Shown piece after piece: positions 451 through 42,489 of a DNA stretch of 64,000 nucleotides; the stretch's first letter is position 1, and each line of letters begins with the position of its first letter. Made by a program: the position numbers and the translations under genes. A model generated the notes under the pieces. That model was not told where the DNA came from. It worked only from the letters and a program-made list of their open reading frames with translations, and searched no databases. Origin of the DNA: Citrus sinensis (lineage: Eukaryota; Streptophyta; Magnoliopsida; Sapindales; Rutaceae). The stretch covers positions 18,453,501 to 18,517,500 of the forward strand of contig NC_068557.1 in the NCBI RefSeq assembly GCF_022201045.2, given 5' to 3'.

Positions 451-455
451 GCCAT

Positions 456-1812
456 TGTTGTGCAAATTTTAATGTACTCGCAAGCGCACGAATCTGTTGT
501 AGTATAGATTAATGGTGACGAGTGTCGATCCCACGAGGAGGTGGATTTTAATTGTGTAGAATTAATTTTTGTGAATGGGTGATTGGATTTGTGGTGGAAA
601 TGATTGGAATATGATAAAACTTAAATTAAAATGGCGAGAATAAATTTTAAAATTGGTATTGAAATGGTGAGAATAAATTGAAGAGAATTCTATTGAAATG
701 ACGTACTTGGGTATCTGGATCCGTATCAACATGCATCATGGGCTAAATAATCCGTATTAATGCCAATTAAATCATGAGGGGGGAATCCATACCTCATGAA
801 CCACGCTCTAATCAATATGGTGCTAAGGGCTTATCGTGCCAAATAATAATAACCTTATACTAGAGAGCCGGTGTAACCAAGGTGGTATCTAGACAAGACT
901 ATTATTATTTGTCGACGAGAAGTCAAAACATCCACAAAAATTAGAGGGGAAGAGAAAATAAATTTACCAAATTAAGCCCATGACACATGTTGAGACTTCA
1001 CCTTCAACCCAAGCTTGAAAGAAAATTAGCCACTCATAGTTGAACTAGGGGCAAAATGGGAATTTATTAAAATACGAAGAAAATACAAGATGGAGAAGGA
1101 ATTACAGAAAATGGATCCCAAAAATGGATTCAGAGATATCAAATTAGGGGGGAGAGGCCCCCTTTTTATAGATACATGGAGTAAATCATGCCCATCAGAT
1201 TAAAAACAGTTTGGACGCTCAGGATTGCGCCACGTCATCAGTCAATAGTCCACGGTTTGACCACGCGGATGAACAGTAACACGGTTTGACTCGGATGAAC
1301 AGTAACGCGGTTTGGTTGAAAATAATCATGTGTGATGCATGTACCGTACGCGAGATTTTTTATCCACTGATATGCTGCCACGTCACCATCAACAGTACAT
1401 AAGAATTTTAGCCCAACAGGATCGTGACACCTCATCAGTCAATGCCACATCATCGGTCAATGCCACGTCATCGATCCGTCTATGTGAACAGTGTTGTGAA
1501 CAGTAACGTATACAGTACCGTACACGTGAATAGTACCGTACATGTGAATAGTGCCATTTTTCCTTTTATGCTCCTCCTAAGGTTTTTGACCGTCCTGAGT
1601 TCAAAAGTGATGTCCGTTTTGCCGTCTGATTTCTCCTTTATTGTGAAATGACTATAATGCCCCTAAAATACATAAAATACTTAATTAAAATAAAACACAT
1701 GTAATTAAATCACAAGAAGGTTAAATACATAAAAGTAAGGGTTGTTAGTAAGACTTGAAATGTAAAATGACGGTTTTCTCCTTTATAAATATGCATTTTC
1801 TAACACTCAACA
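456..1812 (-). repeat. 3' LTR of Athila copy A
   Basis: It matches 11538-12894 along its whole length with about 20 substitutions. It contains a TATA-like motif and a C/G hairpin near 1155-1170, and a cluster of short repeated units built on GAACAGTA and CGTGAATAGTAC (about 1250-1555). Reading frames within it recur in all four LTRs of the window and are not separate genes. Confidence 0.95.
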
Positions 1813-1825: not shown

Positions 1826-3710
1826 GCTTATTGCTAGTCCCTAACAAATAAAGCGAAAACAAAATTCAAATTCAAAATGATTTTTTTTTTTTTTAGAAAC
1901 ACTCGTGTTTATTCAATCAGATTAATGATAGCAATCAAATAAAAGTATAAGCATTATCTCCAGTCTAAAGCAACATCACACCCACATCAACCATCCACAT
2001 GAATTAGCCCAGTAGACTTTGTTATAGCTACTTTCAAGAATGACATGTCAAACCCCAAAATCTCACTAGAAGTAGTGACACTCTCACAAATAAATTAAAC
2101 CCAATAAAAATAGTCACTCCAATGAATGGTAATTGAGAGAGAAAATAATAAAGAAGTGATATCACATGCTCTCACCAAGATGAAATAAATATGCCCTCAG
2201 CTTAGAAATAATACGATCTCAAGTCAAATAAAATGTAAGTCAACCCACTTTATTTATCTTTTTTTTTTTAATTATGCATCACTACATCTTTTTAGCCCAT
2301 ATAACTAGCTTCTACTTCAGATTATAGTTTCCTAAAATCAGGAAGGACTTTTATTAGGATGTAACGTAGGCTAGGGACATGGTTAACAAAGAAAGGAAAT
2401 AAGGAAAACAAAGTGTATGTTTGAGAAAAATGCAGAGATTTTTTTTTTTTTTTGGAAATTGCAAGGTGGATTTCACCTATTATTGTTATTTTTATTCTTT
2501 TGAAACAACGACTTTTGTTTTGTTGTTTTTTTTTTTTGGTATAACTTCACTTAACAACATAATTATTTACATTTTCTCAAACATAAATAGGTGATGGAAC
2601 TTATAAGATATCGAGTAATACTCCAAATCAGAGTGGGTCAAGATGATAAGTTGACAAAGAAAATGTTTTTTTTTTTTAAAGGCTCAAAAGGGTTAACTAT
2701 GGATATTTAATAAAAGGGATGGCTAGAAAGGCTCAAACGGATCAAAGATGGCATTTTCATCGTCTTTTAGGGCTCTAAATAACCTTCCATATCTACTAGT
2801 TAGATGGGCCTCCAAATGTAGCAACACACTTTTTTTTCTTTTTTTTTCTTTTTATTAAGGGTTAACTCAAAAGAATTCTAGAGATCGTGTATAAAATAAT
2901 AAATTGCTAAGCTGTATAAAGAGTGGGCAAAAGGGTTATTCTCCAAGAAAAATAATAGGCTCAAAAACTCACTTGGTACTTATTATGACATGTTCATTCC
3001 TTCAAGCAACTCATATTTGTCTCCGACATCAACATGTAGAGTAGCAAACATAATGTAACATCACTTAAGACCAAAGATAATACAAATACTAAAATTTGAA
3101 ATTAATCATGTCATCCAATGTTAAAACAAATCACACAATTTTTTTTTTAAACAACATTCTACCCCCTAACCTATTCTAAACATGAAAAGAAAATATGCAT
3201 GCAGAAATGTGAAAATGATGCATAAAAACTAATTAGAAAAGTTACACGTAAAATGATAGAAAATAAAAATGTTGTTTTTTTTTTGTTTTTTTTTTTTAAA
3301 GAAGATGTGTTTCTAGAGGAACTACACTCCATATTCAGCCATCTTCGACTCACAAGTTGGAAAATGTATATTTATAGAGGAGAAATTAAAAAGAAGAAAA
3401 ATAAACATAAAAACATAATAAAGAAAAAGAAAATGTCTGAATTTTTTTTTTTAGTTTTTTAATTTTATTTTTTTTTTACCATGAAGATGCGTTTCTAGAG
3501 TCACTAAACTCCATATTCAGCCATCTTCGACACAAAAAGTTAGCAACAGTTAGTTTCTACAACAAAAATTAGTAAAAACTTAACCAAAATTCCACAATTG
3601 TCGACTATTCCCTCCCCCCAACCAGAACGAAACATTGTCCTCAATGTTTGAAAGGAAAGAAGTAGAGTTTAGAAGACATCACCTGGGTGGTGCAACACAG
3701 AAGAAAATAT
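1826..3710 (-). other. Long non-coding tail of copy A
   Basis: About 1.9 kb of sequence rich in T and A runs between the LOG-like frame and the 3' LTR, with no credible coding frame. It contains two further GGTTGGGG-like purine tracts (minus strand, near 3161-3172 and 3614-3623). It also holds two copies of a 46-bp unit (3301-3346 and 3483-3528) whose ends are inverted repeats (GAAGATG...CATCTTC). The same arrangement is kept in copy B at 38707-40597. Confidence 0.7.
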
Positions 3711-4379
3711 TTACAGGCGGAGAGTTAAATCTAATTTGTACTTCTTACTGCGGCTACTGTTACCATCATTATTTGGTCGCTCCAACACAAAGGTCCAGGG
3801 GTCTGGCTCCGGTTTATAAGCTTGTAACATATCAAGTAGCTCAGTAGCAGTGTGAGCACAAATAAAGAGTTTTTTCACATTAGCGGGAATGAAATAGTTT
3901 TTTATTGCATGGTTAAGAAATGCGATAAAGCCATCATAAAAGTTATTGACATTTAACAAACCGATGGGTTTCTGGTGGATGTGCAGATGGGCCCAAGATG
4001 CTAGCGTGATAAGTGCCTCTAGTGTTGCAAGATCTCCTGGAAGGAAAATAAAAGCATCAGCATGATTAAGCATTTCAGTTATTCTTTCTTGCATACCTGA
4101 GACGACTAACTCTTCTCCAGTTGATGAGTCAGACGAACTGCCCAATGGTTTTAAGACTCTTGGGATGATGCCTAACACTTGACTTCCTCTGATAAAAGCT
4201 GCTTCTGAGATCATTTTTGATAACCCTCGGTTACCTCCTCCATACACCAAGTGTAATTGTCTCGCTGCTATACTTCGACCAAGATCGATGGCTGCCTCAA
4301 CGAACTCTTTATGTTTGCCATATGTAAATCCAGAAAGCACACAAATATTCTTGAATTGTCTATTGGGAGTAGCTGCCAT
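3711..4379 (-). CDS. LOG-like cytokinin riboside-monophosphate phosphoribohydrolase homologue carried by Athila copy A
   Basis: An open frame of 222 residues counted from the ATG at 4379. It aligns by eye along the whole length of plant LONELY GUY (LOG) proteins: the N-terminal ICVLSG strand, the nucleotide-binding VYGGGNRGL segment at about residues 47-55, a VLGIIP segment, the GEELV and MQER region, a divergent form of the PGGxGT signature (about residues 118-128), and a KPIGLLN strand followed by the C-terminal helix. LOG enzymes release free-base cytokinin from its riboside monophosphate in the cytosol. Host LOG genes have several introns; this frame has none, which suggests capture through spliced RNA. 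It lies downstream of pol in the same orientation, with the same 669-bp length in copy B. Because the signature is divergent, catalysis is uncertain; family membership is not. Confidence 0.85.
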   Translation of the reverse strand: MAATPNRQFKNICVLSGFTYGKHKEFVEAAIDLGRSIAARQLHLVYGGGNRGLSKMISEAAFIRGSQVLGIIPRVLKPLGSSSDSSTGEELVVSGMQERITEMLNHADAFIFLPGDLATLEALITLASWAHLHIHQKPIGLLNVNNFYDGFIAFLNHAIKNYFIPANVKKLFICAHTATELLDMLQAYKPEPDPWTFVLERPNNDGNSSRSKKYKLDLTLRL

Positions 4380-4696
4380 TGCGATACTTCTCAAAAATAA
4401 TTTGTGAGTGCTTGACAAAAGATATCACATTTAAGAGTCTTGGTGATAGTGGGTCATGGTTGTGTATGAGGTAATATGTCAGTGTTAAATAACGCGTAAA
4501 GCACGTGGCTCGCAAGTCAAAAAGAAAACAGTAAAAAGGAAAAAGCAAACAATAATAAAATTATTAAGACAATAATGCAAACAATAAGACAATAGTGAAA
4601 TAAAATAACAATAAAGTAAAAGGATATTTACAGGTAGTTGCGACTGTGGCTCACATCTTCCTCTGGTTTTACGTCCAGAAACGGCTTGAACGCCCT

Positions 4697-5233
4697 CTAT
4701 GGGTCGAGGATAGGCTTCCTATCCAGTTTTCTTATAAACTGGCAAACAGGGTCGTTTATAGTCAGATTCCCGAGACTATATCGCGCATGCTCTTTCTGGA
4801 ATAATGACCATAACTGGAGAATCGCTCCTTGCACATATCCACTGGGATGCGTTTCAAGAGACAAAAGGATATCATCCAATGACTCCTTATTCAAGCCATC
4901 CCTAATGAATTGAATCTTATCTTCCTTGTTATCAGACATCATTCCTAAAGAACATGGGTTTTTATTGCAACTCATTCTGGCACACTTATGACAAGCAACA
5001 GAAATTCTTCGAGCTCGTCGTTTTCTTGCATAATTTCCTTTACCACAACCAGGCATGTATGCAATAAATTTTGGAGGTAACTCACCTGCCGATCGTACTT
5101 TAGCCTCGATTAACCAACGGATGTCAGCAGGTATGTTATTCCTCATGAGTAATCGCATGCGTTCGGACCGAGCTTTATAGATCGTAAGGAGGGCATTCTG
5201 AGGAAGTGAAGGGAATCGCTTGTGAAGCTTCAC
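4697..5233 (-). CDS. Basic Cys-rich protein resembling flexi-like plant virus nucleic-acid-binding proteins, Athila copy A
   Basis: An open frame of about 178 residues; the exact start is uncertain. The centre has an arginine-rich patch, YARKRRARR (about residues 68-76), followed at once by a Cys cluster of the form C-x2-C-x4-C-x4-C (residues 81, 84, 89, 94), then a helical C-terminal half. The order helix, YARxRRAR, CHxC, Cys, then FIRDG is what I recall of the small Cys-rich nucleic-acid-binding or silencing-suppressor proteins of carlaviruses, vitiviruses and mandariviruses. It sits between pol and the LOG-like frame and is present in copy B (37168-37725) with few differences. A role in binding element RNA or countering silencing is inference. 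It could instead be a convergent basic zinc-binding protein. Confidence 0.6.
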   Translation of the reverse strand: MKLHKRFPSLPQNALLTIYKARSERMRLLMRNNIPADIRWLIEAKVRSAGELPPKFIAYMPGCGKGNYARKRRARRISVACHKCARMSCNKNPCSLGMMSDNKEDKIQFIRDGLNKESLDDILLSLETHPSGYVQGAILQLWSLFQKEHARYSLGNLTINDPVCQFIRKLDRKPILDP

Positions 5234-5395
5234 TAGAATCTCGTTTCTGTCCGTACCTTCGCCTCAGAATATCAGTTATTATGGGAAACTGAAGTAACCG
5301 ACTTGATTGTCACGGAGTACCGTTATCCGCCACTTCACCGGGGTAACAAACTAAAGCACACAAACAGAAAAACAAATTAAAACACACAAAGAAAA

Positions 5396-5629
5396 TTAAA
5401 ATCGTCCTCTTATTGAATTTACCTCAAGCTCCAACTGGATGTCGTAAACACTTCTCTCAATGTCTCTGAGTTGGCGTTCTAAACCCTCAACATAGGCTAC
5501 TAACTCTGGTGGTTGTAGAGCCCAAATGCGTTGTGTTTTACAAAATTGAATCTGCCTTTTGAGATGAGTTTTGACACGTTGAAGTGGTTTAAGAATGTTC
5601 AGGAGGAACGGTCTAAGTATGAGACTCAT
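5396..5629 (-). CDS. Small helical protein of unknown function, Athila copy A
   Basis: A 77-residue open frame from the ATG at 5629, just downstream of integrase. The N-terminal part is hydrophobic and basic (LRPFLLNILKPL, then LKRQI). The C-terminal part is a likely amphipathic or coiled-coil helix (VEGLERQLRDIERSVYDIQL). A longer frame starting upstream would add a hydrophobic leader, but that start is not an ATG. The homologous frame in copy B is at 36793-36999. I recognise no family; an oligomerising or membrane-associated accessory protein is possible. Confidence 0.45.
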   Translation of the reverse strand: MSLILRPFLLNILKPLQRVKTHLKRQIQFCKTQRIWALQPPELVAYVEGLERQLRDIERSVYDIQLELEVNSIRGRF

Positions 5630-5809
5630 GATTAAAAATGATAAGAGAAAACTTAATGGTAAAATAAACACACTTATGCAAAAACAATTTCAATTAGCAA
5701 AAGAATAATAATAAAAAGAAAGAAAGAAAAATCAAATCAACGAAAAGAAAAAAAATCAATTCAAATTTGGTGGGTCACTCAAATTTATTTCGGTGTCTTC
5801 TTCATGTGG

Positions 5810-8800
5810 TTAGTACTCTAGATATGGCTTTAATCTTTGACCATTAACTTTAAACGTGACACCATTCTTTGGGTCTTTAATTTCAATTGCCCCATGTGGA
5901 AAAATAGTATGAACAATAAATGGGCCCGACCAACGAGAGCGTAACTTACCTGGGAATAGGTGCAAGCGAGAATTGAATAAAAGCACTTTCTGACCTGGAG
6001 TGAACGATTTTCTCATAATTTGCTTATCATGGAAGACTTTCATTCGTTGCTTGTAAATCTTGGCATTTTCGTACGCGTCATTGCGAATTTCTTCAAGTTC
6101 TGCCAGCTGTAATCTTCTTTCTGAGCTGGCTTGCTGCATGTCAAAATTGAATTTCTTGATGGCCCAATATGCACGATGCTCGAGTTCCACAGGTAGGTGG
6201 CAAGCTTTTCCATACACTAGCCTGTAGGGTGACATCCCAATCGGGGTCTTGAAAGCCGTTCTATATGCCCATAAGGCATCATCAAGTCTTAATGACCAAT
6301 CTTTTCTGTCCGGCCTCACCGTCTTTTCTAATATGTGCTTTATTTCTCGATTGGAGATCTCAACTTGGCCACTGGTTTGCGGATGATACGGGGTCGCCAC
6401 TTTGTGTGTGATTGAATACTTTGTCAAAAGAGCTTTGAATGCTTTGTTACAAAAGTGGGCACCACCATCACTGATTATTGCTCGAGGGAATCCAAAGCGT
6501 GAAACAATGTTGCTTTTCAAAAATGCTATCACCACCTTGTGATCATTGGTTCTACATGGAATTGCTTCTACCCATTTCGATACGTAGTCAACACCAACCA
6601 ATATGTATTGGTGGCCAAAAGAAGGGGGAAAGGGTCCCATGAAGTCGATACCCCATACGTCAAAAATTTCTACCACTAAAATTGGATTTAATGGCATCAT
6701 GTTCCTTCGTGTAATGCTCCCCATTCGTTGACACCTATCACATGAAGAACAGAACGTGTAAGCGTCTCGAAATATAGTTGGCCAATAGAAACCACATTGT
6801 AAAACTTTAGTCGCTGTTTTCTTAGCACTGAAATGGCCTCCACAAGCTTGTTCATGGCAGAATGAAAGAATATTCTGAATTTCATTTTCTAGGACACATT
6901 GTCTAACAATTTGGTCTGCACAATACTTGAACAAATACGGGTCATCCCAAAAGAAATTCTTTATCTCTGCAAAGAATTTAGCCTTGTCTTGCTTGGTCCA
7001 ATGCTCTGGAAGTTTACCTGTAACAAGATAATTAACTATATCAGCATACCAAGGTAATACTTCCACATTCATTAATTGTTCATCTGGAAATGACTCATTC
7101 AATGGTAATGATTCTGTAATTGTGTCAAAATGGAGTCGAGAGAGGTGGTCTGCCACAACATTTTCTGTCCTTTTCTTATCTTTGAACTCCAAGTCAAATT
7201 CCTGCAAAAGTAACACCCAACGAATTAGTCTGGCTTTTGCATCTTTCTTTGTGAGAAGATATTTAAGAGCAGCATGATCTGTGAATATAATTATTTTACA
7301 ACCAATGAGATAAGATCGAAATTTCTCCAATGCAAACACTACTGCTAGCATTTCTTTTTCAGTAGTTGAATAGTTCAACTGTGCATCATTCAATGTCATA
7401 CTAGCATAGTAAATAACATGCGGAATTCGATCAACTCTTTGTCCTAATACTGCTCCTACTGCATAGTCAGATGCATCACACATGAGTTCAAATGGTAAAC
7501 TCCAGTTCGGGGACTGAATGATGGGTGATGATGTCAACAAATGCTTTAATTTTTCAAACGCCATAAGACATGAATCATTAAAGATAAAAGGTACATCCTT
7601 AGCAAGTAAATTACATAAGGGTCTAGAAAACTTTGCTAAAATCTTTAATGAAACGTCTATAGAAACCAGCATGCCCAAGGAAAGATCTTACTTCTCTGAC
7701 TGTTTTGGGTGGAGGAAGATTAGAAATGAGATCCACCTTGGCTTTGTCAACCTCAATACCTTTGCTCGAAATGATGTGACCGAGAACAATACCTTGTTTT
7801 ACCATAAAATGGCATTTCTCCCAATTTAAGACCAAGTTTTTCTCGACACATCTCTGCAGAACTAGTGTTAGATGATGTAAACATTGATCAAACGAGTCAC
7901 CAAAGACAGAAAAATCATCCATAAAGACTTCAAGAAATCGTTCAACCATATCAGAAAAAATGCTTAGCATGCATCGTTGAAATGTAGCAGGTGCATTACA
8001 TAATCCAAATGGCATTCTTCTATATGCAAATGTGCCAAAAGGGCAAGTGAAAGTAGTTTTCTCTTGATCTTTTGGTGCTATGGGAATCTGATTATATCCT
8101 GAGTAGCCATCTAGAAAGCAATAAAATTCATGTCCTGCTAATCTATCAAGTATTTGATCGATAAATGGTAAAGGAAAATGGTCTTTACGTGTGACAGAAT
8201 TCAACTTTCTATAATCAATGCATACACGTCATCCTGTAGTTACTCTAGTGGGTATCAATTCATTATCAGCATTGGTAACTACTGTGACTCCTGACTTTTT
8301 GGGGACAACTTGCACATGACTAACCCATGAACTATCAGAAATGGGGTAAATGATACCAGTATCTAATAGCTTAAGGACTTCTGTTCTAACAACTTCTTTC
8401 ATATTAGGATTTAACCGACGTTGCATTTCCCTAGTAGATTTAGCATTTTCATTAAGGTGAATGTAATGCATGCAGTCTACTGGGTTTATACCTTTAATGT
8501 CTGCTATGGTCCATCCTAATGCTCCTTTGTGCTCTTTTAAAACATCCAACAACTTACCTTTTTGTTCGTCATTTAGGGATGATGAGATGATTACCGGCAA
8601 AGTACTTTCTTCTCCCAAAAATGCATATTCCAATGTGTTGGGCAATGGTTTGAGCTCGAGTTTCGGTGGTGATTCTGATGATGGGATGAGTTTCTTCTCT
8701 GATGGTGCTAGTTGTTCAACTCTTGACTTCCATTTATTAGTATCCATAGATGGTGCTGAGTCAAGCAGGGCGTTGACCTCATCAACCGATCTGTCAATAT

Positions 8801-11147
8801 CAAAATCAAAACCAAAGTGAGTTAAACATGTTTGTAAAGGATCATCACTAAGGTTTGAAACAAAAGTATCATCAACTAATGCTTCAATTAAATCCACATC
8901 AACAATTCCATCATCTGCACTGTGAGGTTGTTTGGCAATGTTGAAGATGTTCAGCTCCATAGTCATGTTGCCGAAGGACAACTGCATATTTCCAGTCCTG
9001 CATTGAATGTGAGCATCCGCAGTTGCCAAGAAAGGTCGGCCTAGAATAATGGGGATGTGCTTCCTTGAATCCTGTATTGGTTGAGTGTCAATTACAATAA
9101 AATCAACAGGAAAATAAAACTTGTCTACCTGGATAAGCACGTCCTCCACAATACCACGAGGTATTTTCGTGGACCGATTTGCAAGCTGTAACACCACTGG
9201 AGTTGGGTGTAATTCTCCAAGTCCAAGTTTCACAAATACTGAATAAGGCAACAAATTTACACTAGCTCTTAAATCCAACAAAGCATTCTCAATTGTGTGG
9301 TTCCCTATACTACATGAGATAGTGGGGGAGCCTGGATCTTTGCATTTTAAAGGAATTTTATGTTGGAGTATAGAACTAACGTTTTCTGTTAAAAATGCCT
9401 TCTTTTGAACATGCATATTTCTCTTTTTAGTACAAAGGTCTTTAAGAAACTTGGCATAAGATGGAACTTGTTTAATAGCATCAAGCAAAGGGATGTTAAC
9501 ACTTACCTGTTTGAAGATTTCAAGAATCTCACCTGTGGATTTTCCCTTTTTTCCTTTAGCTAACCTCTGAGGAAATTGAGCTTTGGGAACGTATTCTCGT
9601 GGGTTGGTTTCTTCTTTCTCCTCCGGTGATGATTCCTCAACATTCACAGGTACAATTTGATTTTCTTTTGTCACCGGCATCTCCACTTTGTTGTCGACTT
9701 CTTTTCCTTTTCGCAAGGTCATGACAGCTTTGACCTCTCCATGCTGCTGTGGTGAACTGGTACTTGCTTCATGTACTCCTTTAGGATTAGGCACTGGTTG
9801 ACTTGGAAATTTGCCTTTCTCAACGGTCATTGCCAAGGTCTGAACTGAAGAAGCAAGTTGTCCCACCATCTTCTCGAGGCTTGAAACCGATTGAGCTTGT
9901 GAGTTGAAGCCTGCTCTCAACTTATTTCGTAGTCCATCAATGGTGCGGTTCTGTTGCTCAATCGTGGAGTGAGTAACATTCCTGAAATTCTGGAATGCAT
10001 CCTCCCATGGTCTAGGTTGAGAGTGGTTCTGGTTCTGATTGTATGGTCTAAATGGTGGCTGAGAGGCTTGAGGAACTTGAGGAATTTGTTGCATTGGTGG
10101 AGCTGGAGCTGCTGGTCCATTCTGTTGGAATCCTTGAGACCATGAAAAATTGGGGTGGTCTCTCCATCCAGGATTATATGTGTTGGAGTATGGGTTGTAA
10201 TTTGATGGCTTTCTCATTACACCTATGGCATTGGCTTGATCTGAGTATGAGTCATGGTCATGTGGCTCTGTTGATTTAGCAGTCGATAACGATGCTATTT
10301 GTCGAGCAAGACCTTCAACCATCTCCTTGACTTCTTTGATTCCCGAAGTTGACTCGCCAATTTGAACCTCATTTACTCCTTTAATTCTTCTAGTATTCCT
10401 GAGTGATCGACTCCGTTGTTGGGAATTATCCGCTTGTCGCTGGAAGAATTCCCAAATTTCTGATGCACTTTTTGACATTAGCTCTCCTCCACTTGTTGTC
10501 ATTAGCCATTCTTGCACATTTGGTAGTAATCCCTCTAAAAAGTATTGGCATTGGTGCCATTTCTCGTACCCATGATGTGGACACTTCAAGAGTAGCCCAT
10601 TGAATCGCTCCCATGTTTCGAAAAATTGCTCGTCCTCTCTCTGAGTAAACTCTGAGATTTCCCTGCGAATAGCATTGGTTTTATGCACTGAGAAATATTT
10701 ATTCAAAAATTTCGTTACCATTTGTTCCCATGATGAAATGCTATTAGCAGGTAAAGTATTTAACCATGAACGAGCTCTATCTTTTAAAAAAAATGGGAAT
10801 AGTCTAAGTTTAACATCATCATCTGAAAAATTCTCATATTTGAATGTTTGACAAATGGCATGAAAATCATTCAAATGATTATATGGATCCTCATTTTCTA
10901 GGCCATAAAATGTAGGGAGACAATTTAACACACTAGGTTTTAATTCAAAACTCTTAGCAGCTACATTTGGGTATCTTATGCATGACGTGCTCAAATTAGC
11001 TAAGGGACTAAAATAGTCCTTAAATGGCCTCTCTTGTGGTGCTTGTAAATCCATTTTATTTTTAACGTGTTTGTGTAAGCGAAGTGTTTTTTCTAATTCA
11101 AGGTCTATAGGTTCAAGATTAGGTAATAATGACTTACGACCATGCAT
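5810..11147 (-). pseudogene. gag-pol: gag-pol region of Athila copy A
   Basis: Minus-strand coding region, read from about 11147. Gag (about 11147-9500) has the plant retrotransposon gag fold with the DRARSWLNTLP and CPHHGYEKW segments typical of the Athila branch. A retropepsin-like protease follows (about 9350-9000), then reverse transcriptase (about 8500-7600, with the FMDDF active-site box), RNase H (about 7550-7150) and integrase (about 6950-5900) with an N-terminal zinc-binding region and a DDE core. No chromodomain is visible after the integrase. The frame is broken about two or three times, so no complete polyprotein is expected from this copy. Confidence 0.93.
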
Positions 11148-11514
11148 GCAAAACAAATAAAATAAAAATAAGGATGAGAACAAAACAAATAAAAATAAAG
11201 AAGAGGGAGAAATTACGATACTAACCTTATTGCGCTATTAAAACCTTTCTATAAAAATACACAAAAACAAATACGTGAAATAAATTAACTAAAAATTAAA
11301 TTAATAAAATAAACAAAAAAAATTACAAAGAAAAATAAATTGAAAATTAAATTACAGAATTTTAAAGAAGAGAAAAAGGAAAGAAATACTAACCTTTAAA
11401 TGTAGATTCACTTTTTTTTTCTTTTTTTTTAATTTAATAAAAAAAATACAAGAAAACAAATAAAAGAAATTATTCAAAAAAAAAATTAATTCTATGAATT
11501 AAAATTACTTACCT

Positions 11515-11531: not shown

Positions 11532-11537
11532 AAAACT

Positions 11538-12894
11538 TGTTGTGCAAATTTTAATGTACTCGCAAGCGCACGAATCTATTGTAGTATAGATTAATGGTGA
11601 TGAGTGTCGATCCCACGAGGAGGTGGATTTTAATTGTATAGAATTAATTTTTGTGAATGGGTGATTGGATTTGTGGTGGAAATGATTGGAATATGCTAAA
11701 ACTTAAATTAAAATGGCGAGAATAAATTCTAAAATTGGTATTGAAATGGTGAGAATAAATTGAAGAGAATTCTATTGAAATGACGTACTTGGGTATCTGG
11801 ATCCGTATCAACATGCATCATGGGCTAAATAATCCGTATTAATGCCAATTAAATCATGAGGGGGGAATCCACACCTCATGAACCACGCTCTAATCAATAT
11901 GGTGCTAAGGGCTTATCGTGCCAAATAATAATAACCTTATACTAGAGAGCCGGTGTAACCAAGGCGGTATCTAGACAAGACTATTATTATTTGTCGACGA
12001 GAAGTCAAAACATCCACAAAAATTAGAGGGGAAGAGAAAATAAATTTACCAAATTAAGCCCATGACACATGTTGAGACTTCACCTTCAACCCAAGCTTGA
12101 AAGAAAATTAGTCACTCATAGTTGAACTAGGGGCAAAATGAGAATTTATTAAAATACGAAGAAAATACAAGATGGAGAAGGAATTACAGAAAATGGATCC
12201 CAAAAATGGATTCAGAGATATCAAATTAGGGGGGAGAGGCCCCCTTTTTATAGATACATGGAGTAAATCATGGCCATCGGATTAAAAACAGTTTGGACGC
12301 TCAGGATTGTGCCACGTCATCAGTCAACAGTCCACGGTTTGACCACGCGGATGAATAGTAACATGGTTTGACTCGGATGAACAGTAACGCGGTTTGGTTG
12401 AAAATAATCCTGTGTGATGCATATACCGTACGCGAGATTTTTCATCCACTGATATGCTGCCACGTCACCATCAACAGTACATAAGAATTTTAGCCCAACA
12501 GGATCGTGACACCTCATCAGTCAATGCCACATCATCGGTCAATGCCACGTCATCGATCCGTCTATGTGAACAGTGTTGTGAACAGTAACGTATACAGTAC
12601 CGTACACGTGAATAGTACCGTACATGTGAATAGTGCCATTTTTCCTTTTATGCTCCTCCTAAGGTTTTTGACCGTCCTGAGTTCAAAAGTGATGTCCGTT
12701 TTACCGTCTGATTTCTCCTTTATTGTGAAATGACCATAATGCCCCTAAAATACATAAAATACTTAATTAAAATAAAACACATGTAATTAAATCACAAGAA
12801 GGTTAAATACATAAAAGTAAGGGTTGTTAGTAAGACTTGAAATGTAAAATGACGGTTTTCTCCTTTATAAATATGCATTTTCTAACACTCAACA
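11538..12894 (-). repeat. 5' LTR of Athila copy A
   Basis: Directly repeated with 456-1812. Transcription of the element should start in this LTR and run leftwards. The TATA-like motif lies near 12240-12255 on the minus strand, next to a short C/G-rich hairpin. Confidence 0.95.
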
Positions 12895-29530: not shown

Positions 29531-30872
29531 TGTTGAGTGTTAGAAAATGCATATTTATAAAGGAGAAGACCGTCATTTTACATTTCAAGTCTTACTAATA
29601 ACCTTTACTTTTATATATTTAACCTTCTTGTGATTTAATTACATGTGTTTTATTTTAATTAAGTATTTTATGTATTTTAGGGGCATTATAGTCATTTCAC
29701 AATAAAGGAGAGATCTGACGGCAAAACAGACATCACTTTTGAACTCAGGACGGTCGAAAACCTTAGGAGGAGCATAAAAGGAAAAATGGCACTATTCACA
29801 TGTACGGTACTGTCTACGTTACTGTTCACGACACTGTTCATATAGACGGATCGATGACGTGGCATTGACCGATGATGTGGCATTGACTGATGAGGTGTCA
29901 CGATCCTGTTGGACTAAAATTCTTATATATTGTTGATGGTGACGTGGCAGCATATCAGTGGACGAAAAATCTCGCGTACGGTATATGCATCACACAGGAT
30001 TATTTTCAATCAAACCGCGTTACTGTTCATCTGGGTCAAACCGTGTTACTGTTCATCCGCGTGGTCAAACCGTGGATTGTTGACTGATGACGTGGCGCAA
30101 TCCTGAGCGTCCAAACTGTTTTTAATCCGATGGCCATGATTTACTCCATGTATCTATAAAAAGGGGGCCTCTCCCCCCTAATAGGATATCTCTGAATCTA
30201 TTTTTGGGATTCATTTTCTGTAATTCCTTCTCCATCTTGTATTTTCTTCGTATTTTAATAAATTCCCATTTTGCCCCTAGTTCAATTATGAGTGACTAAT
30301 TTTCTTTCAAGCTTGAGTTGAAGGTGAAGTCTCAACATGTGTCATGGGCTTAATTTGGTAAATTTATTTTCTCTTCCCCTCTAATTTTTGTGGATGTTTT
30401 GACTTCTCGTCGACAAATAATAATAGTCTTGTCTAGATACCGCCTTGGTTACACCGGCTCTCTAGTATAAGGTTATTATTATTTGGCACGATAAGCCCTT
30501 AGCACCATATTGATTAGAGCGTGGTTCATGAGATGTGGATTCCCCCCTCATGATTTAATTGGTATTAATACGGATTATTTAGCCCATGATGCATGTTGAT
30601 ACGGATCCATATACCCAAGTACGTCAATTTAATAGATTTTCTCTTCAATTTATTCTCTCCATTGCAATTCCAATTTTAGAATTTATTCTCGCCATTTTAA
30701 TTTAAGTATTAGCATATTCCAAATCATTTCCACCATAAATCCAACTACCCATTTACAAAATTAATTCTATATATAATTAAAATCCACCTCCTCGTGGGAT
30801 CGACACTCGTCACCATTAGTCTATACTACAATAGATTCGTGCGCTTGCGAGTACATTAAAATTTGCACAACA
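29531..30872 (+). repeat. 5' LTR of Athila copy B
   Basis: Begins TGTTGAG and ends CACAACA. A TATA box (TCTATAAAAA, about 30153-30162) precedes a GGGGGCCTCTCCCCC hairpin, and an AATAAA signal occurs near 30256. A promoter, transcript start and polyadenylation region can therefore be placed in this LTR. Confidence 0.93.
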
Positions 30873-30878
30873 AGTTTT

Positions 30879-30895
30879 TGGCGCCGTTGCCGGGG
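30879..30895 (+). promoter_or_regulatory. Primer-binding site of copy B
   Basis: TGGCGCCGTTGCCGGGG, six bases after the LTR end and identical to copy A. Likely tRNA-Asp priming, by recall of Athila elements. Confidence 0.8.
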
Positions 30896-31254
30896 AGGTA
30901 AGTAATTTTTAGAATTAATTTTTGTGAATAATTTCTTTTATTTGTTTTCTTGTATTTTTTTTATTATTAAAAAAAGAAAAAGAAAAAAAAGTGAATCTAC
31001 ATTTAAAGGTTAGTATTTCTTTTCTTTTTCTCTTCTTTAAAATTCTGTAATTTAATTTTCAATTTATTTTTCTTTGTAATTTTTTTTTGTTTATCTTATT
31101 AATTTATTTTTAGTTAATTTATTTCACGTATTTGTTTTTGTGTATTTTTATAGAAAGGTTTTAATAGCGCAATAAGGTTAGTATCGTAATTTCTCCCTCT
31201 TATTTATTTTTATTTGTTTTGTTCCCATCTTTATTTTCATTTTATTTGTTTTGC

Positions 31255-34200
31255 ATGCATGGTCGTAGGTCATTATTTCCTAATCTTAAACCTATAGACC
31301 TTGAATTAGAAAAAACACTTCGCACACACAAACACGTTAAAAATAAAATGGATTTACAAGCACCACAGGAGAGGCCATTTAAGGATTATTTCAGTCCTTT
31401 AGCAAATTTGAGCACATCATGCATAAGATACCCAAATGTAGCTGCTAGGAGTTTTGAACTAAAACCTAGTGTGCTAAATTGTCTCCCCACATTCTATGGC
31501 TTAGAAAATGAGGACCCATATAATCATATGAATGATTTTCATGCCATTTGTCAAACATTTAAATATGAGAATTTTTCAAACGATGATGTTAAACTCAGAT
31601 TATTCCCATTTTCTTTAAAGGATAGAGCTCGTTCATGGTTAAATACTTTGCCTGCTAATAGCATTACATCATGGGAACAAATGGTAACTAAATTTTTGAA
31701 TAAATATTTCCCAGTGCATAAAACCAATGCTATTCGTAGGGAAATTTCAGAGTTTACACAAAGAGAAGACGAGCAATTTTTCGAAACATGGGAGCGATTC
31801 AATGGGCTACTCTTGAAGTGTCCACATCATGGGTACGAGAAATGGCACCAATGTCAATACTTTTTGGAGGGATTACTACCAAATGTGCAAGAATGGCTAA
31901 TGGCAACAAGTGGAGGAGAGCTAATGTCAAAAAGTGCATTAGAGATTTGGGAATTTTTCCAGCGACAAGCAGATAATTCCCAACAACGAAGTCGATCACT
32001 CAGGAATACTAGAAGAATTAAGGGAGTAAATGAGGTTCACATTGGTGAGTCAACTTCGGAAATCAAAGAAGTTAAGGAGATGGTTGAAGGTCTTGCTCGA
32101 CAAATAGCATCGTTATCGACTGCTAAATCAACAGAACCACATGACCATGACTCATACTCAGATCAAGCCAATGCCATAGGTGTAATGAGAAAGCCATCAA
32201 ATTACAACCCATACTCCAACACATATAACCCTGGATGAAGAGATCACCCCAATTTTTCATGGTCTCAAGGACTCCAACAGAATGGACTAGCAGCTCCAGC
32301 TCCACCAATGCAACCAATTCCTCAAATTTCTCAAGCATCTCAGCCCCCATTTAGACCATACAATCAGAACCAGAACTACTCTCAACCTAGACCATAGGAG
32401 GATTCATTCCAGAATCTCAAGAATCTTACTCACTCTACGATTGAGCAACAGAACCGCACCATTGATGGACTACGAAATGAGTTGAGAGCAGGCTTCAACT
32501 CACAAGCTCAATCAGTTTCAAGCCTTGAGAAGATGGTGGGACAACTTGCTTCTTCAGTTCAGACCTTGGCAATGACTGTTGAAAAAGGCAAGTTTCCAAG
32601 TCAACCAGTGCCTAACCCTAAAGGAGTGCATGAAGCAAGTACCAGTTCACCACAGCAGCATGGAGAAGTCAAAGCAGTAATGACCTTGCGAAAAGGAAAA
32701 GAAGTCGACAACAAAGTGGAGATGCCGGTGTCAAAAGAAAATCAAATTGTACCTGTGAATGTTGAGGAATCATCACCGGAGGAGAAAGAAGAAACCAACC
32801 CACGAGAATACGTTCCGAAAGCTCCATTTCCTCAGAGGTTAACGAAAGGAAAAAAGGGAAAATCCACAGGTGAGATTCTTGAAATCTTCAAACAGGTAAG
32901 TGTTAACATCCCTTTGCTTGATGCTATTAAACAAGTTCCATCTTATGCCAAGTTTCTTAAAGACCTTTGTACTAAAAAGAGAAACATGCATGTTCAAAAG
33001 AAGACATTTTTAACAAAAAACGTTAGTTCTATACTCCAACATAAAATTCCTTTAAAATGCAAAGACCCAGGCTCCCCCACTATCTCATGTAGTATAGGGA
33101 ACCACACAATTGAGAATGTTTTGTTGGATTTAGGAGCTAGTGTAAATCTTTTGCCTTACTCTGTATTCGTGAAACTTGGACTGGGAGAATTACACCCAAC
33201 TCCAGTGGTGTTACAGCTTGCAGATCGGTCCACGAAAATACCTCGTGGTATTGTGGAGGACGTGCTTATCCAGGTAGACACGTTTTATTTTCCTGTTGAT
33301 TTCATTGTAATTGACACTCAACCAATACAGGATTCAAGGAAGCACATCCCCATTATTCTAGGAAGCACATCCCCATTATTCTAGGCCGACCTTTCTTGGC
33401 AACTGCGGATGCTCACATTCAATGCAGGACTGGAAATATACAGTTGTCCTTCGGTAACATGACTATGGAGTTGAACATCTTCAACATTGCCAAACAACCT
33501 CACAGTGCAGATGATGGAATTGTTGATGTGGATTTAATTAAAGCATTAGTTGATGATACATTTGTTTCAAACCTTAGTGATGATCCTTTACAAACATGTT
33601 TAACTCACTTTGGTTTGAATTTTGATATTGACAGATCGGTCGATGAGGTCAACGCCCTGCTTGACTCAGCACCATCTATGGACACTAATAAATGGAAGTC
33701 AAGAGTTGAGCAACTAGCACCATCAGAGAAGCAACTCATTCCATCATCAGAATCACCACCGAAACTCGATCTCAAACCATTGCCCAACACTCTGGAATAT
33801 GCATTTTTGGGAGAAGAAAGCACTCTGTCGGTAATCATCTCATCATCCCTCAATGACGAACAAAAAGGTAAGTTGTTGGATGTTTTGAAAGAGTACAAAG
33901 GGGCATTAGGATGGGCCATAGCAGACATAAAAGGTATAAACCTAGTAGACTGTATGCATTACATTCACCTTGATGAAAATGCTAAATCTACTAGGGAAAT
34001 GCAACGTCGGTTAAATCCTAACATGAAAGAAGTTGTTAGAACTGAAGTCCTTAAGCTATTAGACGCAGGTATCATTTACCCCATTTCTGATAGTTCATGG
34101 GTCAGTCCTGTGCAAGTTGTCCCCAAAAAGTCAGGAGTCACAATAGTTACGAATGGTGATAATGAATTGATACATACTAGAGTAACTACAGGATGGCGTG

Positions 34201-36668
34201 TATGCATTGATTATAGAAAGTTGAATTCTGTCACACGTAAAGACTATTTTCCTTTACCATTTATTGATCAAATGCTTGATAGATTAGCAGGCCATGAATT
34301 TTATTGCTTTCTAGATGGCTACTCAGGATATAATCAGATTCCCATAGCACCAAAAGATCAGGAGAAAACTACTTTCGCTTGCCCTTTTGGCACATTTGCA
34401 TATAGGAGAATGCCATTTGGATTATGTAATGCACCTGCTACATTTCAACGATGCATGTTGAGCTTTTTTTCTAATATGGTGGAACGATTCCTTGAAGTCT
34501 TTATGGATGATTTTTCTGTCTTTGGTGACTCGTTTGATCAATGTTTACATCATCTAACACTAGTTCTTCATAGATGTATCGAGAAGAACTTGGTCTTAAA
34601 TTGGGAGAAATGTCATTTTATGGTACAACAAGGTATTGTTCTCGGTCACATCATTTCGAGCAAAGGTATTGAGGTTGACAAAGCCAAGGTGGATCTCATT
34701 TCTAATCTTCCTCCACCCAAAACAGTCAGAGAAGTAAGATCTTTCCTTGGGCATGCTGGTTTCTATAGACGTTTCATTAAAGATTTTAGCAAAGTTTCTA
34801 GACCCTTATGCAATTTACTTGCTAAGGATGTACCTTTTATCTTTAATGATTCATGTCTTATGGCGTTTGAAAAATTAAAACAGTTGTTGACATCATCACC
34901 CATCATTCAGGCCCCAAACTGGAGCTTACCATTTGAGCTAATGTGTGATGCATCTGATTATGCAGTAGGAGCAGTATTAGGACAAAGAGTTGATCGAATT
35001 CCCCACGTTATTTACTATGCTAGTATGACATTAAATGATGCACAGTTGAACTATTCAACTACTGAAAAAGAAATGCTAGCAGTAGTGTTTGCATTGGAAA
35101 AATTTCGATCATATCTGATTGGTTGTAAAATAATTATATTCACGGATCATGCTGCTCTTAAATATCTTCTCACAAAGAAAGATGCAAAAGCCAGACTAAT
35201 TCGTTGGGTGTTACTTTTGCAGGAGTTTGACTTAGAATTCAAAGATAAGAAAGGCACAGAGAATATTGTGGCGGACCACCTCTCTCGTCTCCATTTTGAC
35301 ATAATTACAGAGCCATTAATATTGAACGAGTCATTTCCAGATGAACAATTAATGAATGTGGAAGTATTACCTTGGTATGCTGATATAGTTAATTATCTTG
35401 TTATAGGTAAACTTCCAGAGCATTGGACCAAGCAAGATAAGGCTAAATTCTTTGCAGAGATAAAGAATTTCTTTTGGGATGACCCGTATTTTTTCAAGTA
35501 TTGTGCAGACCAAATTGTTAGACGATGCGTCCCAGAAAGTGAAATTTCGAATATCCTTTCATTCTGCCATGAACAAGCTTGTGGAGGCCATTTCAGCGCT
35601 AAGAAAACAGCGACTAAAGTTTTACAATGTGGTTTCTATTGGCCAACTATATTTCGAGATGCTTACACTTTCTGTTCTTCATGTGATAGGTGTCAACGAA
35701 TGGGGAGCATTACACGAAGGAACATGATGCCATTAAATCCAATTTTAGTGGTTGAAATTTTTGACGTATGGGGTATCGACTTCATGGGACCCTTTCCCCT
35801 ATCTTTTGGCCATCAATACATATTGGTTGCTGTTGACTACGTATCAAAATGGGTAGAAGCAATTCCATGTAGGACCAATGATCACAAGGTGGTGATAGCA
35901 TTTTTGAAAAGCAACATTGTTTCACGCTTTGGATTCCCTCGAGCAATAATTAGTGATGGTGGTGCCCACTTTTGTAACAAAGCATTCAAAGATCTTTTGA
36001 CAAAGTATTCAATCACACACAAAGTGGCGACCCCGTATCATCCGCAAACTAGTGGCCAAGTTGAGATCTCCAATCGAGAAATAAAGCACATATTAGAAAA
36101 GACGGTGAGGCCGGACAGAAAAGATTGGTCATTAAGACTTGATGATGCCTTATGGGCATATAGAACGGCTTTCAAGACCCCGATTGGGATGTCACCCTAC
36201 AGGCTAGTATATGGAAAAGCTTGCCACCTACCTGTGGAACTCGAGCATCGTGCATATTGGGCCATCAAGAAATTCAATTTTGACATGCAGCAAGCCAGCT
36301 CAGAAAGAAGATTACAGCTGGCAGAACTTGAAGAAATTCGCAATGATGCATACGAAAATGCCAAGATTTACAAGCAACGAATGAAAGTCTTCCATGATAA
36401 GCAAATTATAAGAAAATCATTCACTCCAGGTCAGAAAGTGCTTTTATTCAATTCTCGCTTGCACCTATTCCCAGGTAAGTTACGCTCTCGTTGGTCTGGC
36501 CCATTTATTGTTCATACTGTTTTTCCACATGGGGCAATTGAAATTAAGGATCCAAAGAACGGTGTCACGTTTAAAGTTAATGGTCAAATATTAAAGCCAT
36601 ATTTAGAGTACCAACCACATGGAGAAGACACCGTAATAAATTTGAGTGACCCACCAGGTTTGAATTGA
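31255..36668 (+). pseudogene. gag-pol: gag-pol region of Athila copy B
   Basis: Gag runs from about 31255 and carries the same Athila-type gag domain as copy A. The protease follows at about 33060-33330. Reverse transcriptase (about 34190-34800), RNase H (about 34920-35290) and integrase (about 35500-36600) lie in one continuous frame of 1,090 codons (33396-36668), and no chromodomain is visible. The gag-protease portion has about three breaks. A 25-bp tandem duplication is visible near 33340-33385 at the protease end. Confidence 0.93.
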
Positions 36669-36792: not shown

Positions 36793-36999
36793 ATGAGTAC
36801 CTTACTTAGACCGTTCCTCCTGAACATTCTTAAACCACTTCAACGTATCAAAACTCATCTCAAAAGGCAGATTCAATTTTGTAAAACACATCGCATTTGG
36901 GCTCTACAACCACCAGAGTTAGTAGCCTATGTTGAGGGTTTAGAAAGCCAACTCAGAGACATTGAGAGAAGTGTTTACGACATCCAGTTGGAGATTTAG
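36793..36999 (+). CDS. Small helical protein of unknown function, Athila copy B
   Basis: A 68-residue frame starting with ATG. It is homologous to 5396-5629 of copy A, with the same LRPFLLNILKPL start and the helical VEGLESQLRDIERSVYDIQ segment. The C-terminus is shorter than in copy A. Family unknown. Its conservation between independent insertions suggests it is a true component of the element. Confidence 0.45.
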   Translation: MSTLLRPFLLNILKPLQRIKTHLKRQIQFCKTHRIWALQPPELVAYVEGLESQLRDIERSVYDIQLEI

Positions 37000-37167
37000 G
37001 TAAATTCAATAAGAGGACGATTTTAATTTTCTTTGTGTGTTTTAATTTGTTTTTCTGTTTGTGTGCTTTAGTTTGTTACCCTGGTGAAGTGGCGGATAAC
37101 GGTACTCCGTGACCATCAAGTCGGTTACTTCAGTTTCCCATAATAACTGATATTCTGAGGCGAAAGT

Positions 37168-37725
37168 ATGGACAAAAACGAGACTCTAGCGAAGCTTCAC
37201 AAGCGATTCCCTTCACTTCCTCAGAATGCCCTCCTTACGATCTATAAAGCTCGGTCCGAACGCATGCGATTACTCATGAGGAATAACATACCTGCTGACA
37301 TCCGTTGGTTAATCGAGGCTAAAGTACGATCGGCAGGTGAGTTACTTCCAAAATTTATTGCATACATGCCTGGTTGTGGTAAAGGAAATTATGCAAGAAA
37401 ACGACGAGCTCGAAGAATTTCTGTTGCTTGTCATAAGTGTGCCAGAATGAGTTGCAATAAAAACCCATGTTCTTTAGGAATGGTGTCTGATAACAGGGAA
37501 GATAAGATTCAATTAATTAGGGATGGCTTGAATAAGGAGTCATTGGATGATATCCTTCTGTCTCTTGAAACGCATCCCAGTGGATATGTGCAAGGAGCGA
37601 TTCTCCAGTTATGGTCATTATTCCAGAAAGAGCATGCACGATATAGTCTCGAGAATCTGACTATAAACGACCCTGTTTGCCAGTTTATAAGAAAACTAGA
37701 TAGGAAGCCTATCCTCGACCCATAG
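37168..37725 (+). CDS. Basic Cys-rich viral nucleic-acid-binding-like protein, Athila copy B
   Basis: A 185-residue frame with a good ATG start. It contains the same YARKRRARR basic patch followed by the C-x2-C-x4-C-x4-C cluster, with few differences from copy A. The N-terminal helix (LLTIYKARSERMRLL) and the FIRDG/LIRDG segment after the Cys cluster also resemble what I recall of flexi-like virus Cys-rich proteins. It lies about 0.5 kb after the integrase and 0.3 kb before the LOG-like frame. Confidence 0.6.
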   Translation: MDKNETLAKLHKRFPSLPQNALLTIYKARSERMRLLMRNNIPADIRWLIEAKVRSAGELLPKFIAYMPGCGKGNYARKRRARRISVACHKCARMSCNKNPCSLGMVSDNREDKIQLIRDGLNKESLDDILLSLETHPSGYVQGAILQLWSLFQKEHARYSLENLTINDPVCQFIRKLDRKPILDP

Positions 37726-38037: not shown

Positions 38038-38706
38038 ATGTCAGCTACTCCTAATAGACAATTCAAGAACATTTGTGTGCTTTCTGAATTTACCTATGGC
38101 AAACATAAAGAGTTCGTTGAGGCAGCTATAGATCTTGGTCGAAGCATAGCAGCGAGAAAATTACACTTGGTGTATGGAGGAGGTAACCGAGGGTTATCAA
38201 AAATGGTCTCAGAAGCAGCTTTTATCAGAGGAAGTCAAGTGTTAGGCATCATCCCAAGAGTCCTAAAACCATTGGGCAGTTCGTCTGACTCATCAACTGG
38301 AGAAGAGTTAGTCGTCTCAGGTATGCAATAAAGAATAACTGAAATGCTTAATCATGCTGATGCTTTTATTTTCCTTCCAGGAGATCTTGCAACACTAGAG
38401 GCACTTATCACACTAGCATCTTGGGCCCATCTGTACATCCACCAGAAACCCATCGGTTTGTTAAATGTCAATAACTTTTATGATGGCTTTATCGCATTTC
38501 TTAACCATGCAATAAAAAACTATTTCATTCCCGCTAATGTGAAAAAACTCTTTATTTGTGCTCACACTGCTAATGAGCTACTTGATCTGTTACAAGCTTA
38601 TAAACCGGAGCCAGACCCCTGAACCTTTGTGTTGGAGCATCCACATAATGATGGTAACAGTAGCTGCAGTAAGAAGTACAAATTAGATTTAACTCTCCGC
38701 TTGTAA
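38038..38706 (+). pseudogene. LOG-like gene of Athila copy B (broken)
   Basis: A 669-bp region of the same length as the copy A frame, from an equivalent ATG to an equivalent stop. It keeps the VYGGGNRGL nucleotide-binding segment, the VLGIIP segment and the KPIGLLN strand. The frame is interrupted, so this copy should not make a full LOG-like protein. Its presence at the same place in both elements shows that the gene belonged to their common ancestor. Confidence 0.85.
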
Positions 38707-40609: not shown

Positions 40610-41979
40610 TGTTGAGTGTTAGAAAATGCATATTTATAAAGGAGAAGACCGTCATTTTATATTTCAAGTCTTGCTAATAACCTTTACTTTTATATATTTA
40701 ACTTTCTTGTGATTTAATTACATGTGTTTTATTTTAATTAAGTATTTTATGTATTTTAGGGGCATTATAGTCATTTCACAATAAAGGAGAGATCTGACGG
40801 CAAAACAGACATCACTTTTGAACTCAGGACGGTCGAAAACCTTAGGAGGAGCATAAAAGGAAAAATGGCACTATTCACATGTACAGTACTGTCTACGTTA
40901 CTGTTCACGACACTGTTCATATAGACGGATCGATGACGTGGCATTGACCGATGATGTGGCATTGACTGATGAGGTGTCACGATCCTGTTGGACTAAAATT
41001 CTTATATATTGTTGATGGTGACGTGGCAGCATATCAGTGGACGAAAAATCTCGCGTACGGTACATGCATCACACAGGATTATTTTCAACCAAACCGCGTT
41101 ACTGTTCATCCGGGTCAAATCGCGTTACTGTTCAAAGTCGGGTCAAACCGTGTTACTGTTTATCCGCGTGGTCAAACCGTGGATTGTTGACTGATGACGT
41201 GGCGCAATCCTGAGCGTCCAAACTGTTTTTAATCCGATGGCCATGATTTACTCCATGTATCTATAAAAAGGGGGCCTCTCCCCCCTAATAGGATATCTCT
41301 GAATCTATTTTTGGGATTCATTTTCTGTAATTCCTTCTCCATCTTGTATTTTCTTCGTATTTTAATAAATTCCCATTTTGCCCCTAGTTCAATTATGAGT
41401 GACTAATTTTCTTTCAAGCTTGGGTTGAAGGTGAAGTCTCAACATGTGTCATGGGCTTAATTTGGTAAATTTATTTTCTCTTCCCCTCTAATTTTTGTGG
41501 ATGTTTTGACTTCTCGTCGACAAATAATAATAGTCTTGTCTAGATACCGCCTTGGTTACACCGGCTCTCTAGTATAAGGTTATTATTATTTGGCACGATA
41601 AGCCCTTAGCACCATATTGATTAGAGCGTGGTTCATGAGGTGTGGATTCCCCCCTCATGATTTAATTGTCATTAATACGGATTATTTAGCCCATGATGCA
41701 TGTTGATACGGATCCAGATACCCAAGTACGTCAATTTAATAGATTTTCTCTTCAATTTATTCTCTTCATTGCAATTCCAATTTTAGAATTTATTCTCGCC
41801 ATTTTAATTTAAGTATTAGCATATTCCAAATCATTTCCACCATAAATCCAACTACCCATTTACAAAATTAATTCTATATATAATTAAAATCCACCTCCTC
41901 GTGGGATCGACACTCGTCACCATTAGTCTATACTACAATAGATTCGTGCGCTTGCGAGTACATTAAAATTTGCACAACA
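40610..41979 (+). repeat. 3' LTR of Athila copy B
   Basis: Matches 29531-30872, but is 28 bp longer owing to an extra unit of the GGTCAAACCG/GTTACTGTTC repeat near 41118-41150. This short repeat array differs in unit number between LTRs. Confidence 0.93.
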
Positions 41980-42489
41980 ATAATGCCCCATAATAATCCA
42001 CGGGCCTTTTGTTAGGGCATCGACAGCATCAGTAGCCGAACGAAAGCGCACCAGGAAATAATTATTCTCTAGGTCTATCACCGAATAAGTCATTGTTGTT
42101 TTCCACATGGCATTCAATCTCCTGCATAGTGTTCTATAACCGATCGTGCGACCCAGCAGCTTCACTATCACTGAGTTCTTCCATGGCTCACATAACTTCG
42201 CATGAACTCTCTCCGAGAATGTTATAGAAGGCATAGGTCCAACCGGATTCTCAGTCACGTCCCCTTCCTCAAACTCCCAATCCATTGTTTCATCACCATA
42301 ACCCGTCTCCATTGCTCGCGTTGAGTTCACGAGGGTTTCCTTATACGAAATCTGCACAGGGGTATCAGCAGAAACTTCCTCATCACGAATCCTTGCTTTC
42401 TTAGTTGTTCTAGTCTCCCTGAACGGCGGAGGAAAAATTCCTCCAGCGCTAGGGTTTTTTCCATGTCCATGTTTTTCGGAGCTTTCCAT
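41980..42489 (-). pseudogene. LINE ORF1, N-terminal part
   Basis: Starts at the ATG at 42489. It has an acidic/polar leader followed by the first half of a DUF4283 domain (NSVIVKLLGRTIGY, then NNYFLVRF and GPWIIMGHY), cut at the junction with Athila copy B. The domain resumes on the far side of the insertion at 29530 with the YLTVQPW motif. This shows directly that the retrotransposon entered an existing LINE. Confidence 0.9.

Follow-up and report, generated by a model that had tools for sequence, protein, structure and literature searches.

We analysed a 64,000-nucleotide stretch of the Citrus sinensis genome (contig NC_068557.1, positions 18,453,501 to 18,517,500; hereafter the window), which contains two full-length long terminal repeat (LTR) retrotransposons in opposite orientations. 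In both elements, pol is followed, ahead of the 3′ LTR, by an additional open reading frame (ORF), which precedes an ORF similar to LONELY GUY (LOG) proteins. The additional ORF extends over 188 codons from stop to stop in each copy, the two being 95% identical, and we call it NABP after the viral nucleic-acid-binding proteins (NABPs) that it resembles. An earlier note on this DNA had claimed that an LTR retrotransposon encodes a virus-type protein of this kind, and the frame does sit inside two Ty3/gypsy elements with LTRs, gag and pol. As the note had described, both copies have the basic patch YARKRRARR and, after it, a cluster of four cysteines, but the cluster does not follow the patch directly: four residues, ISVA, separate the patch from the first cysteine. 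The gene of copy 2 had been placed exactly, with ATG and stop at 37168-37725. For copy 1, given as 4697..5233, the frame was right and the end was not, since the open frame reaches 5263 and the start codon has been lost; ACG replaces ATG, and the first in-frame ATG is at residue 36.

The cysteines are spaced C-x2-C-x4-C-x4-C in the window copies. Both the cysteines and the basic residues are conserved across an alignment of 103 rows, with the fourth cysteine one residue nearer in 96 rows and the full pattern C-x2-C-x4-C-x3/4-C present in 86. A tree of these rows has few named rows and no outgroup, and we draw no conclusion from it.

Relationship to viral nucleic-acid-binding proteins

The core that matches viral profiles in many of the relatives spans about residues 36-126 and comprises a helical segment, the basic patch and the four-cysteine finger. 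In an alignment of 48 members that takes in both window proteins, 45 matched the Pfam model Carla_C4 (PF01623) and 40 matched Viral_NABP (PF05515) at E ≤ 0.01, with best values of 5.8e-8 and 1.1e-8. The next-best family, SHQ1, was matched by two of the 48 (E 0.0018), and no other family reached E < 0.001 in the Pfam scans of these members and of 10 single relatives. The latter were picked by hand; eight scored above the Viral_NABP cut-off (23 bits) and seven above that of Carla_C4 (20.9 bits). In the best-scoring relatives, the Viral_NABP matches are ~80-90 residues long. The earlier note had proposed a profile search as a check, and had said that its claim would fall with the lack of a significant viral match or with a better match to an unrelated host zinc-binding family. 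Since the viral matches are significant and no family competes with them in the scans, neither outcome was seen.

Decoys built from one relative (P0071) show which residues carry these matches. When the cysteines were kept fixed and the remainder shuffled, none of five decoys matched Carla_C4 or Viral_NABP (three had other chance matches, E 0.06 to 0.45), and the single decoy lacking the core gave no viral match. When the core was kept and the flanks were shuffled, Carla_C4 was matched by all three decoys, twice above the cut-off, and Viral_NABP by one, at 17.2 bits versus 28.7 for the parent. Thus, ~27 residues account for the Carla_C4 match on their own; that of Viral_NABP draws on the flanks as well. 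A search of PDB sequences with NABP returned one weak match, to TrpE (E 0.085), which was discarded.

The carlavirus NABPs (PF01623) and the Viral_NABP proteins (PF05515) share with the element protein the order of basic patch and four-cysteine finger, and their profiles match many of its relatives. The element protein differs from them in being encoded by an integrated LTR retrotransposon and in its length of about 182-188 residues, with a conserved C-terminal region past the profile match. We regard it as very probable, from these comparisons, that the NABP core is homologous to viral NABPs, a homology that is well supported at the family level only.

Copies in the genome and constraint

We scanned 299.7 Mb of the genome, in 11 contigs. 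Among the 150 best-scoring NABP copies of 1882 candidates, 149 lack an internal stop. Early estimates of the ratio of nonsynonymous to synonymous polymorphism (pN/pS) were 0.34 for 27 places (bootstrap 0.16-0.70; other frames 0.64 and 0.98) and 0.24 for nine copies; both were biased, because the copies had been ranked by NABP protein score, and were replaced. A less biased set consists of 20 copies chosen via the neighbouring LOG gene, although these too were drawn from the top of a ranking, namely the 150 LOG places that scored best among 2115 candidates. Every one of the 20 retains the ATG and the four cysteines; 19 are free of stops, the remaining copy having three. Their pN/pS is 0.315 in the NABP frame, compared with 1.37 and 0.81 in the other frames.

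The gene is also found in more distant elements of the same genome. A Citrus relative with 64% identity, used as query, gave 124 scored NABP places. One of them belongs to the first family; the other 123, many of which contain stops, are 76-91% identical to that query. Eight of the 124 places, chosen partly for open frames, were examined as diverged loci. The order gag-pol-NABP-LOG is present in seven of them, and the eighth (L068) has pol-NABP-LOG without a gag match. Relative to the window proteins, the gag pieces are 32-42% identical, the pol pieces 48-72% (one short piece 85%), NABP 62-67% and the LOG pieces 56-78%. The NABP frame is stop-free in all eight loci. Against the window copy, the ratio of nonsynonymous to synonymous substitution (dN/dS) is 0.212-0.252 for NABP and 0.175-0.209 for LOG in every locus, the eight comparisons not being independent because three of the loci (L064-L066) hardly differ from each other and the window copy is the partner in every comparison. 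Judged from these sequences, the NABP gene is one that has evolved along with the element under constraint.

The window copies are themselves defective, with broken gag-pol frames, stops in the LOG of copy 2 and no NABP start in copy 1, as could be expected if NABP were a non-functional passenger that young copies happen to have kept open. The frame-specific constraint, seen both within the family and between families, and the conserved cysteines and basic residues of the 103 aligned rows run counter to this explanation, which we disfavour as hardly credible. The 68-residue ORF in the interval between pol and NABP was considered as a third conserved gene and rejected: it is present in nine of nine distinct copies, but its pN/pS is 1.55.

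Some NABP copies occur as equally oriented pairs with a spacing of ~11.1 kb, which is what tandem elements with a common LTR should produce (C8:14243624/14254791, C2:2333060/2344205, C3:30623828/30634952 and C1:7550644/7561788).

Relatives in other plants

A protein search over 5.8 billion proteins gave 345 matches, a profile search gave 720 and a core-profile search gave 535 at E ≤ 10, the best 120 of each being listed. A precomputed PF01623 label is attached to 116 of the best 120 of the 345. Among the matches listed, the closest named relatives are from Citrus x changshan-huyou (87-89% identical), the named hosts are Citrus, Acer, Xanthoceras, Populus, Rhamnella, Parasponia and Striga, and the majority come from metagenome contigs. 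The four genera that we looked up, Xanthoceras, Populus, Parasponia (now Trema) and Striga, belong to Sapindales, Malpighiales, Rosales and Lamiales, respectively; Parasponia and Striga contribute one partial protein each. Recent capture of the gene from a citrus virus is disfavoured, since relatives are also named from non-citrus plants of several orders. In the core-profile search, made with a shortened query, the best 120 of the 535 matches were all 49-75% identical to the retroelement core and yielded no viral sequence.

Databases already label many relatives PF01623 or PF05515, and one source gives one of them the name “Viral nucleic acid binding”, so the NABP resemblance is visible in mechanical annotation. 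We found no report of NABP in a retrotransposon in the open-licence PMC literature, among the matches listed, and the portions at hand of PMC7264820, PMC3136472, PMC7145672 and PMC12334012 hold nothing on an NABP gene in a retroelement.

The host elements

The features of the two elements are collected in Table 1. Their LTRs, target duplication, primer-binding site (PBS), gag and the order of reverse transcriptase (RT), RNase H and integrase are those of Ty3/gypsy retrotransposons. The target duplication of copy 1 is GCCAT, 5 bp, on both flanks, and copy 2 is flanked by ATAGT and ATAAT, alike at four of five positions, i.e., a target duplication with one mismatch. The protease match (PF13650, E 1.4e-5) was obtained with the matching frame of copy 2 and is not copy 1's own. 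The Pfam scan found a single RNase H region, before the integrase. The lineage is probably Athila-like, and the PBS presumably corresponds to tRNA-Asp.

Table 1. Features of the two retrotransposons in the window
Feature	Position	Strand	Basis or remark
Copy 1, whole element	about 456-12894	-	LTR pair and flanks
Copy 1, 3′ LTR	455..1812	-	98.5% identity with 11537-12894 across 1358 nt
Copy 1, LOG-like open frame, 237 aa, intact	3711..4424	-	Lysine_decarbox PF03641 E 2.2e-27; At2g37210 structure E 4.8e-45
Copy 1, NABP open frame, 188 aa	4697..5263	-	ACG at the position of copy 2's ATG
Copy 1, remaining pol, split in two overlapping frames	5810..8228	-	ORF list; matches pol of copy 2 as a 96% inverted repeat
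Copy 1, gag open frame continuing into protease region	8229..11234	-	Retrotrans_gag PF03732 E 5.6e-19
Copy 1, 5′ LTR	11537..12894	-	pairs with 455-1812
Copy 2, whole element	about 29531-41979	+	LTR pair and flanks
Copy 2, 5′ LTR	29531..30873	+	96.3% identical to 40610-41980
Copy 2, PBS TGGCGCCGTTGCCGGGGA	30879..30896	+	donor-like junction GAG/GTAAGT immediately 3′
Copy 2, gag open frame	31168..32238	+	PF03732 E 1.9e-20
Copy 2, pol: RT, RNase H, integrase, in Ty3/gypsy order	33315..36668	+	Pfam
68-aa ORF between pol and NABP	36793..36999	+	pN/pS over 9 copies (see text)
Acceptor-like pyrimidine tract ending in TTTAG	37060..37071	+	~97 nt 5′ of NABP ATG; 30/30 rows
Copy 2, NABP frame	37159..37725	+	ATG 37168, stop 37725, 185 aa
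Copy 2, LOG-like gene, two in-frame stops	38038..38703	+	sequence
Copy 2, 3′ LTR	40610..41980	+	pairs with 29531-30873

The content of gag bears on what NABP might do for the element. Pfam detected no zinc knuckle in the gag frames (P0005 and P0008, E ≤ 1), and NABP, which has a basic patch and a cysteine finger and accompanies the element across diverged families, could be homologous to viral NABPs and yet work in particle assembly, as a nucleocapsid or RNA chaperone encoded apart from gag. Its cysteine spacing is unlike that of the CCHC knuckle, and a separate frame ~500 nt past pol would be expected to yield few copies per Gag. We consider this role unlikely.

Copy 2 was inserted in an older non-LTR retrotransposon, as pieces of a DUF4283 ORF lie on both sides of it (28956-29591 and 41926-42510, both on the minus strand), and RT and zf-RVT frames lie at 24385-27243. 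The window also contains pieces of ordinary plant genes, with ubiquitin-like repeats, APO RNA-binding, SUI1 and peroxidase matches (54520-55317, plus strand; 48703-49251, minus; 58006-58743, minus; 62038-62454, plus; 20073-20501, minus).

The LOG-like neighbour

Canonical LOG phosphoribohydrolases have the catalytic loop PGGxGTxxE. The element protein has DLAT at the position of GYGT in At2g37210 (PGGYGTLEE) in all 16 distinct copies with a LOG match (eight copies and eight diverged loci; a further place, L005, gave no LOG match). It lacks the canonical loop, and we class it as LOG-like. Since the loop is altered, the enzyme may be inactive. The protein with this conserved replacement nevertheless evolves under purifying selection, which suggests that the LOG of the element was repurposed or is enzymatically inactive, and it may bind a nucleotide ligand without the canonical activity.

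The presence of LOG in Citrus Gypsy elements is already published. The portions of PMC9289625 at hand describe a screen of 121 angiosperm genomes, citing Steinbauerova 2011, which found YgdH/LOG in the Gypsy elements of two Citrus species, C. sinensis and C. clementina, and, with the paper's filter off, in those of Populus trichocarpa too. Those Citrus elements are probably the same as the ones described here. The portions of its main text at hand do not mention NABP beside LOG, which the present elements carry; for this pair we found no report in the literature searched.

The joint retention of both genes under constraint could point to another role. By regulating transcription in the nucleus (NABP) and through cytokinin signalling (LOG), the two proteins might together promote division of host cells and thereby transmission through the germ line; in the viral case, expression of CVB P12 leads to hyperplasia (PMC12172455, in the part at hand). 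The altered loop in all 16 distinct copies, with an enzyme that is possibly inactive, fits this poorly, and we judge such a role decidedly improbable.

Proposed expression and function

How could an ORF behind pol be expressed? In the two window elements, the PBS is directly followed by a donor-like GAG/GTAAGT. Of 20 fetched stretches, 18 have the same arrangement and two showed no PBS. All of the 30 rows examined, which represent 27 distinct places, have the pyrimidine tract ending in TTTAG ~97 nt upstream of the NABP ATG. Together, these sites make expression from a spliced subgenomic RNA plausible, in the manner of a retroviral env gene. The two additional genes stand where related elements can carry an env-like gene.

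We propose that NABP would be translated from such a spliced subgenomic mRNA, with the putative donor after the PBS and the putative acceptor before the ATG. The protein would be a nuclear accessory protein binding RNA or DNA; it may bind element-derived RNA and blunt small-RNA silencing, like some of its viral counterparts. We infer that an anti-silencing or RNA-protecting accessory protein is the best reading of NABP. As to origin, exchange of the gene between flexuous RNA viruses and this Athila-like lineage would be the simplest explanation.

Viral proteins are in line with this proposal. According to the part of PMC12172455 at hand, viral cysteine-rich proteins (CRPs) have nuclear-localisation and zinc-finger motifs, and those of several viruses suppress silencing. 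The mandarivirus CRPs described there resemble the element NABP in having a nuclear-localisation or basic patch and a zinc finger, and come from viruses of citrus hosts; one of the two tested showed weak suppression of silencing. They differ in being viral and 223 residues long, and the relatives of the element protein are also found in non-citrus plants.

Taken as a whole, a conserved virus-type NABP with nuclear binding, an anti-silencing role and an origin in virus-element exchange is our best explanation, held tentatively and with a little less than an even chance of being right. Several observations weigh against it. The window proteins score 16.6 and 17.2 bits with Carla_C4 and 14.6 and 16.3 bits with Viral_NABP, all below the cut-offs, so the likeness to viral NABPs announced by the earlier note is supported for the family and not by these two proteins taken singly. 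Proteins of the diverged Citrus families (four of four) match both models weakly, again below cut-off, and the ~27 residues behind the Carla_C4 match suffice to bring two of three flank-shuffled decoys above it. Scans of viral contigs with three profiles gave 92, 7 and 49 pattern matches, none of which was confirmed as a relative, and scanning with a motif pattern picked out three stretches, on contigs of 12-53 kb. The structure prediction that the earlier note had asked for yielded an AlphaFold model of low confidence (pLDDT 68, pTM 0.36) and so a weak check. The relatives outside Citrus are known from their protein sequences, and their residence in retroelements is presumptive. Finally, the splice-like signals were read by eye, and their conservation among young copies says little.

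Part of this evidence would also be expected if the likeness were convergent, with a basic zinc-finger protein derived from the element or the host scoring against two short viral profiles. The short core that carries the Carla_C4 match, the sub-threshold scores of the window and diverged Citrus proteins, and the C-terminal ~60 residues, for which no convincing profile was found (the best, SHQ1, in 2 of 48), are in line with this. Yet most aligned members match two viral models, one of which needs the flanks, and neither the shuffles that preserve the cysteines nor any other family at E < 0.001 offers a comparable match. We therefore consider convergence rather improbable.

A bolder form of the virus-element exchange adds the neighbouring gene. 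The anti-silencing gene exchanged between flexuous viruses and the Athila-like lineage would have been kept with the loop-altered LOG-like protein as a two-gene counter-defence cassette, retained across diverged families and perhaps in several plant orders. We regard this extension as doubtful.

A precedent comes from insects, where retrotransposons carry an SF1 helicase of RNA viruses that is a weak silencing suppressor (PMC6338049, in the part at hand). As proposed here, a retrotransposon holds a gene of plus-strand RNA viruses; the insect case differs in the gene, in the host kingdom and mostly in the types of elements. If the homology is true, a plant LTR retrotransposon and plus-strand RNA viruses would share a gene for host manipulation, present in hundreds of copies in at least this genome. 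This would open the question of the origin of viral NABPs, which are known from two virus families. It would also suggest that a retroelement encodes its own counter-measure against RNA silencing, one that could be tested directly in leaves.
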